From contig NZ_LT907842.1 of NCBI RefSeq assembly GCF_900215245.1, positions 1 through 64,000 of the forward strand: a stretch of DNA of 64,000 nt. Direction: 5' to 3'. Shown piece after piece: positions 40,071 through 48,742 of the stretch. The notes under the pieces are model-generated. The model was not told the DNA's origin, did not search any database, and saw only the letters and a list, made by a program, of their open reading frames with translations. Position 1 is the stretch's first letter, and each line of letters opens with the position of its first letter. Source of the DNA: Pseudomonas fluorescens (GTDB lineage: Bacteria > Pseudomonadota > Gammaproteobacteria > Pseudomonadales > Pseudomonadaceae). Made by a program: the position numbers and the translations under genes.

Positions 40071-40194
40071 CAGCAACTTACGGCCCTTGCCCTGGCGTTT
40101 GGCGCTGGCCTTGCCACCACACGCCCGGCGGCCCCGCTGATCGACGTGTATGGGGTACGCAGATCAAGCTCCCCCTGCCGGTCACGATCGACTA

Positions 40195-40400
40195 CCATAC
40201 CGCGCCGGTTCCCAAAGGGGACTAATAGGGAATTCGACGCGCAGCCCATCGCGCCAATCGAAACTGCCCCCGCAACTGTAGGTGCCGAGCCTGCTCCACA
40301 TCGCCACTGGGCATTGCCCGGGAAGGCCGGAGCGTGGCGACGACGCATCAGTCAGGAGACCTGCCGGCCCAGTAACTCACTAACCGGCGGGGTGTCCGGG
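40195..40400 (+). promoter_or_regulatory. cobalamin (adenosylcobalamin) riboswitch
   Basis: The aptamer elements occur in order: GGTTCCCAAAGGGGACTAAT with AGGGAA at about 40207-40232, the B12-box CTGCCCCCGCAACTGTAGG at about 40264-40282, GCCACTGGGCATTGCCCGGG with AAGG at about 40303-40325, and GTCAGGAGACCTGCC at about 40351-40365. This is the normal layout of cobalamin riboswitches. It lies about 100 bases upstream of a three-gene ABC importer, whose translation or transcription should fall when cobalamin is bound. Confidence 0.93.
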
Positions 40401-47426: not shown

Positions 47427-47500
47427 GTTGAATCCTTGAGAAACGGGCCGGTTGCAGCGGCCGACTTTACAACAGCGCGGAGTCCGAATGATGAATCGCA

Positions 47501-47561
47501 GCGTAGGCAAATGCTCTGGCGTGCGCAACGATACGTCGCCGCCTTGCTCCATTGCCTACGC
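47501..47561. repeat. 61-base inverted repeat upstream of the DUF6124 leader
   Basis: GCGTAGGCAA at 47501-47510 and TTGCCTACGC at 47552-47561 are perfect 10-base arms. Inner bases pair weakly (TGGCG near 47516 with CGCCG near 47537). It differs from the REP classes here. It could be a terminator-like or mobile palindrome. Confidence 0.6.
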
Positions 47562-47639
47562 TTACGTCAGAATCCGCCGGCTTGTGCGCTGGGGTGGCCG
47601 TCTCTAAGGTGGCTCGGTCGCTGAATTGTTCAGTGATCG

Positions 47640-47808
47640 GGTTTAGTAGCCCAAGGTTTAACCTAACAAGTGCACAAGCTTCATCTGTCAGACGTTCCTG
47701 TCTGTGCTCGATGGTGGCTGTGCGTAGGGCACCCTTGGGTGCGCCGGTTTTGTTAGGTTCCACCGGTCTACTAACCTGCGTACAGCTACCGCCTTTTCGT
47801 TTAGTAGC
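47640..47808 (+). ncRNA. highly structured leader RNA of the DUF6124 gene (candidate cis-regulator)
   Basis: Nested helices are visible by eye. GGTTTAGTAG (47640-47649) pairs with CTACTAACC (47768-47776) with one bulge. Inside, AACCTAACA pairs perfectly with TGTTAGGTT. Further in, GCAC-AGC-CATC pairs with GATG-GCT-GTGC, capped by CAGAC-GTTCCT-GTCTG. A separate hairpin GGCACCC-TT-GGGTGC stands beside it. A second GTTTAGTAGC at 47799-47808 can compete with the first for CTACTAAC, giving two exclusive folds. The start codon downstream sits in the loop of TTAAC-AATG-GTTAA. I do not know a named RNA family for it. Confidence 0.6.
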
Positions 47809-47841
47809 GATGAGGTTGTGGCCCAAGCTAGGAACTTAACA

Positions 47842-48081
47842 ATGGTTAACGTCAAACCGGATTCAACCGCCCTCTTCAGCGTCGTTCCCGACGCCAGCAC
47901 CGAAACCCTGATCACCAACAGCTACGAAACCTTCGCCTCCGTCAGCACGCTGTTGCTCGACCTGTCCGAAGACCTGTGCGGCAAACACCGCGACATCGCA
48001 CTGGCCATCCACCAACTGAGCGAACTGGGCGTGCTGCTCACGGCCAAATTGCTCGACCGCGAAGCGCCCTGCCCTGGCTGA
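47842..48081 (+). CDS. DUF6124 family protein
   Basis: 79 residues from the ATG at 47842, which follows TAGGAACTTAACA. It begins MVNVKPDSTALFSVVPDAST and continues through SVSTLLLDLSEDLCGKHRDI and LAIHQLSELGVLLTAKLLDR, two amphipathic helices. I recognise the pattern from the DUF6124 family of small, multicopy Pseudomonas proteins of unknown function. No signal peptide or membrane helix. Expression is probably governed by the structured leader just upstream. Confidence 0.8.
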   Translation: MVNVKPDSTALFSVVPDASTETLITNSYETFASVSTLLLDLSEDLCGKHRDIALAIHQLSELGVLLTAKLLDREAPCPG

Positions 48082-48120: not shown

Positions 48121-48420
48121 TCAATTAGCGCCCGGGTAGTGATCCACGTACTGAATAGTGAAGTCGGGGTAGTGATCGACAATCTGGATTTTGTAGTCCG
48201 GGTAGTGATCGACGGTTTTCCATTTGCCCGCTGAGTCCGGGTAATGATCGACCTTCTGCACCTTGAGGTCGGGGTAGTGATCGACAACCTGAACCTTGTA
48301 GTCCGGGTAGCTATCGACGAACTGGATATTGCCGTAAATCTTCGACACATCAACACTCGTACCCGCCGACGCGCAGAAGGTACAGGTCAGCAACACTGAC
48401 GCCAGAGCAACTTTAAACAT
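48121..48420 (-). CDS. exported protein made of VDHYPD tandem repeats
   Basis: 99 residues from the ATG at 48420 behind TGAGGCTGTC. Signal peptide MFKVALASVLLTCTFCASAG, then VDVSKIYGNIQFVDSYPDYK and six successive units built on VDHYPD-x-K-[VI]-Q (one has a longer insert, SAGKWK). Units are 9-15 residues with alternating hydrophobic and charged positions, suggesting short beta strands. No named family recognised. Acidic/His-rich repeats could bind metal, but that is conjecture. It converges on the DUF6124 gene. Confidence 0.8.
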   Translation of the reverse strand: MFKVALASVLLTCTFCASAGTSVDVSKIYGNIQFVDSYPDYKVQVVDHYPDLKVQKVDHYPDSAGKWKTVDHYPDYKIQIVDHYPDFTIQYVDHYPGAN

Positions 48421-48508: not shown

Positions 48509-48742
48509 TCAGCCCTTCAACTCACCCGCCCGATTACTCGCCGCATCGTCATAAGCCACATACAGCGACTCGGCGATTTGGCTTTTGATGGCTTTGGCGG
48601 CTTCCAGACCCAACACAAACCCTTCAGCCTTGCCGCCAGCGCGGTTGAGCTCTTCGTGGGTAGAGGCGCCGGTGATAGCGTCGAGCAGCTTGGCGGCGTG
48701 AGGGCCTACGCCTTTGGGGAGGGAGATTTGGTCGATGGACAT
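48509..48742 (-). CDS. small conserved hypothetical protein
   Basis: 77 residues from the ATG at 48742 (MSIDQISLPKGVGPHAAKLL) preceded by GAAGGTATCGCC. Predicted helical and soluble (DAITGASTHEELNRAGGKAE, GLEAAKAIKSQIAESLYVAY). No domain recognised. The frame extends upstream to 48817 but without a ribosome site. Confidence 0.65.
   Translation of the reverse strand: MSIDQISLPKGVGPHAAKLLDAITGASTHEELNRAGGKAEGFVLGLEAAKAIKSQIAESLYVAYDDAASNRAGELKG

Follow-up and report, generated by a model that had tools for sequence, protein, structure and literature searches.

A C4 antisense RNA precedes a DUF6124 gene of Pseudomonas fluorescens and very probably silences it as one of many separately addressed C4 cassettes

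C4 is an antisense RNA of the phages P1 and P7 (PMC5320573). In P1, it is cut from a transcript by RNase P and pairs with the ribosome-binding sites of its target mRNA, and ant is not fully repressed unless C4 is present (PMC5320573, PMC8198154). Acinetobacter baumannii has many Group 1 C4-like small RNAs, which are dispersed over the chromosome and have variable antisense loops (PMC5320573). C4 in Pseudomonadales is already known as well, having been predicted there, among other groups, by Weinberg et al. in 2010 (cited in PMC5320573). In the open-licence literature searched, we found neither a link of C4 to DUF6124 or DUF3077 nor a separately addressed C4 array. In the IsrK-orf45-anrP region of Gifsy-1, a short leader activates translation in trans, and a conformational switch of leader mRNA has been demonstrated for Salmonella IsrK (PMC4825925). 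The P1 region served as our positive control; its annotated order is promoter, a1, b1, C4 (77 bases), a2, b2, icd, and ant. It scored 68.8 bits with the Rfam family for C4 (RF01695) and 51.0 bits with c4-a1b1 (RF03163), and its leader reached a subthreshold 35.1 bits with the isrK family (cutoff, 50).

The window analyzed here, a stretch of 64,000 nucleotides from Pseudomonas fluorescens, carries a C4 antisense RNA at 47707-47796 (+) that an Rfam scan matched to RF01695 with 73 bits (cutoff, 45). Upstream, at 47604-47657 (+), lies a weak match to c4-a1b1 (28.0 bits, under the cutoff of 46.7; E = 4.3e-5), a threshold that was missed although complementary a1 and b1 sites are present. Apart from these two, no Rfam family matched positions 47500-48000 at E values up to 1. 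The gene behind the RNA (47842-48081, +; ATG at 47842-47844) encodes a DUF6124 protein of 79 amino acids (PF19619, 88.2 bits). A preliminary description of this DNA had called the region a structured leader in front of a DUF6124 gene, and both parts of that call proved right. Among the other features of the window are a cobalamin riboswitch at 40189-40382 (+; RF00174, 113.4 bits) and, at 48121-48420 (-), a small protein with tandem VDHYPD-type repeats that has no Pfam match.

All parts of the locus lie on the plus strand. A predicted sigma-70-like promoter, recognized by eye at 47582-47610, consists of a -35 box (TTGTGC, 47582-47587), a 17-base spacer, and a -10 box (TAAGGT, 47605-47610). Promoter-like boxes are likewise seen by eye in the equivalent position upstream of many of the genome's 29 C4 units, and we infer that those at the window locus act as a promoter. 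The c4-a1b1-like upstream target element that follows comprises a 5' hairpin and a1 (GTTTAGTAG, 47641-47649, flanked by GGG and CCC), an upstream copy of target site a that is complementary to a' (RNAduplex, -9.6). Next comes b1 (AACCTAACA, 47660-47668), an upstream copy of target site b that is complementary to b' through TTTGTTAGGTT with AACCTAACAAG (RNAduplex, -12.1), and the interval between b1 and C4 holds a small hairpin, CAGAC-GTTCCT-GTCTG (47689-47704). Within C4, an RNase P cut is predicted at 47713, 5' of GGT, by analogy with the GGW motif in PMC5320573, and the GG of this expected cut is invariant in 29/29 aligned C4 copies. The loop of the third C4 helix is the antisense loop b' (TTGTTAGGTTCC, 47750-47761, of which TGTTAGGTT at 47751-47759 is a part), and the C4 joining strand contains the second antisense stretch, a' (CTACTAAC, 47768-47775), which pairs with a1 and with a2. 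Downstream, a2 (47799-47807) is a second copy of the a1 sequence (a'/a2 RNAduplex, -6.5), and b2 (GGAACTTAACAA, 47831-47842) pairs with b' (RNAduplex, -15.1) and overlaps the Shine-Dalgarno sequence (AGGA) as well as the first base, A, of the start codon.

The stretches named in the preliminary description are thus all present: both copies of GTTTAGTAG, AACCTAACA, TGTTAGGTT, CTACTAAC, and the CAGAC/GTCTG hairpin. Its pairings took in a', a1, a2, b1, and part of b', but the site that matters most, b2, was not listed. Its two competing pairings are indeed mutually exclusive and could control access to the start codon; they are now seen to be those of the C4 stretches a'/b' with either a1/b1 or a2/b2.

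On the 5' side of the promoter, positions 47540-47600 (CAGAATCCGCCGGCTTGTGCG) are well conserved among relatives and paralogues, and a shared activator site within this stretch is possible. An inverted repeat, GCGTAGGCAA (47501-47510) and TTGCCTACGC (47552-47561), lies near it.

The leader is strongly structured. Its 262 nucleotides have a predicted folding energy of -96.1 kcal/mol, more stable than that of any of 200 dinucleotide shuffles (z = -3.29). The mature C4 has a predicted fold of -45.0 kcal/mol in which b' and seven of the eight bases of a' are unpaired. In an alignment of 29 of the 30 copies in this genome (L030 excluded), the three C4 helices had 98.0% of cells paired, versus 91.9% in shuffles, and changes on both sides of a pair occurred in 58 cells, versus 15.3 in shuffles, and affected 11 of the 26 pairs. 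In these permutation tests, none of 500 shuffles was as high on any of five measures of covariation, and the signal was lost when the partners were slid by 1 to 3 columns. The compensatory changes that the preliminary description had proposed to seek with R-scape were therefore found, by permutation instead. Of 79 related loci, 61 have the CAGAC/GTCTG hairpin in this or a variant form (CAGAC/GTCTG in 50, CAGAT/GTCTG in 5, CGGAC/GTCTG in 3, and, with both sides changed, CGGAC/GTCCG in 3), and 18 lack it. A hairpin that places the start codon in its loop (TTAAC-AATG-GTTAA, 47836-47849) is present as had been described. It is probably incidental, because only 2 of the 15 relatives that share the b' loop have the same 14 bases, and for want of conservation it was ruled out as a switch element. 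No loop-loop pairing was predicted when mature C4 was cofolded with its target by a method that omits such pseudoknotted pairs.

Because C4 loops are hypervariable, the decisive test was whether each antisense RNA matches its own target. We scored the best ungapped complement (GC, 3; AU, 2; GU, 1; mismatch, -4), taking b' against the 36 bases up to the start codon, for the 29 units of this genome and compared the observed means with 20,000 re-pairings. Cognate pairs scored higher at both downstream sites (b'-b2, mean of 20.2 versus 12.4 for noncognate pairs [sd 2.6]; a'-a2, 17.4 versus 11.3 [sd 2.7]) and also for the upstream copies (b1, 18.8 versus 14.2; a1, 18.1 versus 13.3). In this set of tests, L005 was entered with a start one base too early. 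A second parser of the loop edges gave nearly the same values (b2, 20.4 versus 13.0; a2, 17.0 versus 11.9; b1, 18.8 versus 14.3; a1, 17.6 versus 13.2). With either parser, 0/20,000 re-pairings reached the observed mean in each of the four tests.

All 29 b' loops are distinct, and the two antisense stretches specify the target best when taken together. By itself, b' puts its own target first in only 19/29 units, and a' does so in 23/29 or 19/29, depending on the parser, with many ties. The joint a'+b' score makes the cognate target strictly best for 27/29 C4s with a parser that shifts some loops by one base and for 26/29 with the second parser; the latter puts the loop ends of L022 and L024 in the wrong place, and two of its three misses are misplaced loops. 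In the reverse direction, 25 or 24 of the 29 targets score strictly highest with their cognate C4. When the 79 loci from other species were added, the resulting 55 distinct loops from 108 loci scored 20.2 versus 13.1 or 20.6 versus 13.2 with these same two parsers, and 0/20,000 re-pairings were as good with either one. Shared loops were seen in 0 of 38 same-genome pairs and 63 of 1,288 different-genome pairs, numbers too few for significance, and this is suggestive of addresses that are unique within a genome.

The same locus in other species carries other addresses. In twelve of the 80 related loci, the two neighbors of the window locus are on their proper sides: the nucleotidyltransferase gene lies to the left, and the stretch at 48509-48740 lies to the right. 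At one further locus, L075, both neighbors are on the left; it too was included in the comparison of b' with b2. Together with the window, these loci have five types of b', which form three groups. The window type pairs with its own b2 at -16.6 kcal/mol and with the b2 of other groups at -6.0 to -8.5 kcal/mol; the TTTGGATTCC type likewise favors its own b2 (-17.6 versus -7.5 to -9.8 kcal/mol), and the GATATCC group reaches -9.8 to -12.7 kcal/mol within the group versus -3.4 to -7.5 kcal/mol outside it. The upstream (b1) side shows the own-group pattern too, with one near tie (window loop against the L061 leader, -11.2; against its own leader, -13.6). The open reading frames (ORFs) of L056, L073, L079, and L082 are 89.7 to 91.9% identical in DNA sequence to that of the window. 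Given this group-specific b'/b2 pairing and the identity of the ORFs, the address (b1, b', and b2) was replaced as a set and the gene was retained.

C4 is abundant in this genome (6.51 Mb, one contig), with at least 30 matches, of which 29 are above the cutoff; the count may be a lower bound, as 150 of 1,934 first-look candidates were scored. The cassettes are scattered round the chromosome, and downstream of 29 of the 30 matches lies an ORF that could plausibly start 41 to 56 bases on, the starts having been picked by us among the listed frames. The exception, L030, has no such ORF and is also the sole copy under the cutoff (44.9 bits). The C4-linked ORFs include 19 of the genome's 24 DUF6124 matches, and the remaining ten C4 units precede DUF3077 ORFs (3), a Bro-N anti-repressor-like ORF (1), and ORFs without a family (6), none of the last six having a Pfam family above the cutoff when scanned. 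The other five DUF6124 matches have no C4 nearby at E values up to 0.1. The Bro-N anti-repressor-like ORF (42.6 bits in Pfam; PHROG "anti-repressor Ant," E = 5.7e-15) stands behind the C4 of L015 (2247247-2247334) and starts with a PDPP motif that is common in DUF6124 and DUF3077 ORFs. At L023 (1038194-1038280), the C4 target appears by eye to lie on a 24-codon frame whose stop overlaps the ATG of DUF3077 (ATGA), reminiscent of the coupled icd-ant or orf45-anrP.

The association extends through the genus. Of the 154 related DUF6124 loci found, the best 80 were searched with a covariance model built from the copies in this genome, and 79 of these 80 have C4 upstream; the leader expected at other DUF6124 genes is thus there. 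Among 99 Pseudomonas genomes, for each of which 39 C4 candidates were scored, 92 have C4 and 78 have DUF6124; 39 genomes have at least 20 C4s, and 8 have at least 39. Counts of C4 and DUF6124 are correlated (Spearman coefficient, 0.887), and all seven C4-less genomes also lack DUF6124. Because 5 of the 24 DUF6124 matches in this genome have no C4 and 14/99 genomes have C4 without DUF6124, the link, as read from these sequences, is strong but not exclusive. In a class-wide sample, filtered more strictly and limited to 18 scored candidates per genome, C4 was found in 12/229 genomes, this one counted.

Some DUF6124 genes stand as if their C4 had been removed. In this genome, L036, L041, and L052 (near 274.8 kb, 4110.2 kb, and 1300.0 kb) are C4-less genes in which, by eye, promoter-like boxes, a 5' hairpin, and an a-type site run directly into the gene; they look as if C4 had been deleted between the direct repeats a1/b1 and a2/b2. 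Their best joint scores against the other C4s are 31 to 32, on a scale where the cognate mean is 37.7 and the noncognate mean is 24.7 (sd 3.5), and no other C4 in the genome clearly fits them. In Pseudomonas extremorientalis, L099 is an orphan target, a DUF6124 gene with intact a2/b2 and no upstream C4, before which an unrelated frame of 372 codons (297-1415) ends 41 bases ahead of a2.

A connection with phages nonetheless persists, as the Pseudomonas-type C4 pattern is also carried by 39 viral contigs. Eight of their downstream ORFs were scanned, giving three DUF6124, three DUF3077 (L183, L200, and L220), and two without a family (L189 and L190), the last being a type of small ORF that, by eye, recurs in many of the 39. 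The three DUF6124 ORFs lie directly behind C4 on predicted viral contigs (L184, 43.8 bits; L188, 49.5; L212, 82.3; cutoff, 27). The DUF6124 protein encoded in the window has no PHROG or NCBIfam match, and tblastn at an E value of 0.01 matched it to none of 50,697 phage records and none of 72,556 plasmid records. A DUF3077 paralogue matched one plasmid record and phrog_36471 and had no match among the phage records. AlphaFold2 models the window DUF6124 as a two-helix hairpin whose N terminus is flexible (mean pLDDT, 83.8), and a Foldseek search with this model gave no match at E values up to 0.001 in PDB or BFVD. The protein shows no similarity to Icd of P1 (hhalign probability, 0.15%), and the gene is not ant either.

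Viral and chromosomal copies differ in what lies just ahead of C4. A run of at least five T's within 45 bases before C4 is found in 32/39 viral copies, 13/29 copies of this genome, and 2/79 DUF6124 relatives, a distribution that suggests loss, in the DUF6124 branch, of a terminator-like step present in the phage version. The run stands directly before C4, often behind a hairpin (e.g., GGCGCTTTTTTTGTG), in those 32 of the loci L182 to L220 and in several of the loci L165 to L180. It may represent a terminator-like step between a1/b1 and C4, possibly with an anti-terminator in the b1 region of some copies in this genome. By a loose criterion, 11/29 copies of this genome have a terminator-like hairpin in the interval between b1 and C4, versus 4.5 (sd 1.8; maximum, 10) in 100 rounds of shuffling. 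The window locus has neither the T run nor such a hairpin upstream of C4, and terminator/anti-terminator attenuation was set aside there for lack of the hairpin.

We consider it very probable that the window DUF6124 gene is silenced in translation by the C4 RNA that precedes it, and that this locus is one of many C4 cassettes with separate addresses. The leader encodes a C4-type antisense RNA, probably within the DUF6124 transcript, and release of this RNA, by RNase P if as in P1, would display a' and b' as single strands. These would pair with a2 and b2 in the DUF6124 mRNA, and translation would be blocked because b2 covers the Shine-Dalgarno sequence and reaches the start codon. In the uncut precursor, a1/b1 may hold a'/b' back, as their dominance in the fold predicted for the entire leader suggests, and processing or competition would then set the level of repression. 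Once free as a leader RNA, a1/b1 could titrate C4. About 29 chromosomal cassettes, each with its own a' and b', would in this way silence DUF6124, DUF3077, and no-family proteins and, in one case, a Bro-N anti-repressor-like protein. What survives of the switch or attenuator in the preliminary description is a proposed control of access to the start of DUF6124. The leader contains C4 and is neither a ligand switch nor a new class of RNA.

The same pairings might operate entirely in cis, a long transcript toggling between the precursor fold and a start-masking fold without any free antisense RNA. The minimum-free-energy fold of the uncut leader does pair a1/b1 with a'/b' and does not form the C4 fold, a1/b1 covary with a'/b', and both the leader-mRNA switch of IsrK (PMC4825925) and the subthreshold isrK match of the P1 leader are in keeping with such an attenuator. 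However, the C4 stem shows strong conservation and covariation that a switch acting purely in cis would not need, and C4 of P1 is described as a processed RNA (PMC5320573), so we regard a cis-only attenuator as possible but doubtful. A ligand-binding riboswitch, or a generic structured leader that merely resembles C4, would also account for the strong structure and the maskable start region. Either is highly improbable, since C4 and c4-a1b1 were the only Rfam matches at the locus and hypervariable loops that match their targets are the opposite of a conserved aptamer core; no known class of riboswitch or other cis-regulatory aptamer was matched, and the cognate pairing already refutes this reading in the main.

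Chromosomal C4s might instead act in trans on the mRNAs of incoming phages that carry C4, a role raised as one possibility for the C4-like RNAs of Acinetobacter (PMC5320573). The b' loop of L015 is identical to that of 3/39 viral contigs, and DUF6124 follows C4 on at least three such contigs. Yet this is the only one of the 29 loops of the genome that equals any loop of the 39 viral C4s, and there a' differs. Each chromosomal C4 fits its own downstream gene far better than the genes of its paralogues, and the DUF6124 of the window has no counterpart in the phage records searched. We therefore think phage defense an unlikely explanation, and silencing of the adjacent gene the preferred one.

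If each gene is silenced by its own C4, the numerous small DUF6124 and DUF3077 genes of Pseudomonas would gain a mode of control that can be tested. The cassettes would also offer a natural library, with tens of antisense/target pairs per cell, for studying how RNA addresses diverge without cross talk, and they suggest genome-scale reuse of a phage immunity RNA. We speculate, quite tentatively, that Pseudomonas took over the lysogeny-control RNA of phages as a genome-wide array (29 here and at least 39 in some species) in which each copy silences one small protein of the DUF6124/DUF3077 type. Addresses would be selected for uniqueness within the genome and replaced as a set (b1, b', and b2), and the array might work like separately keyed cassettes of a type I toxin-antitoxin-like or bet-hedging kind.

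Among the described systems, the Gifsy-1 IsrK region resembles the window locus in having a leader RNA with alternative pairings before a small ORF and an anti-repressor gene; it differs in that translation is activated in trans, and the accessible text of PMC4825925 does not mention C4. The Group 1 C4-like RNAs of A. baumannii are, as in this genome, dispersed over the chromosome with variable loops, but the available part of PMC5320573 assigns them no targets, whereas here the matching gene lies directly downstream of each C4. The immI region of P1 and P7 (C4-icd-ant) shares with the window the order promoter-a1-b1-C4-a2-b2-small ORF, and both RNAs belong to RF01695. In P1, b2 also lies beside or over the ribosome-binding site, and the small ORFs are alike in size (Icd, 73 amino acids; window DUF6124, 79 amino acids). 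In contrast, the P1 leader has a T run before C4 (TATTTTTGTG) that the window locus lacks, the ORF behind the window C4 is DUF6124 in place of icd and ant, and, unlike P1, this one genome holds about 29 separately addressed cassettes.
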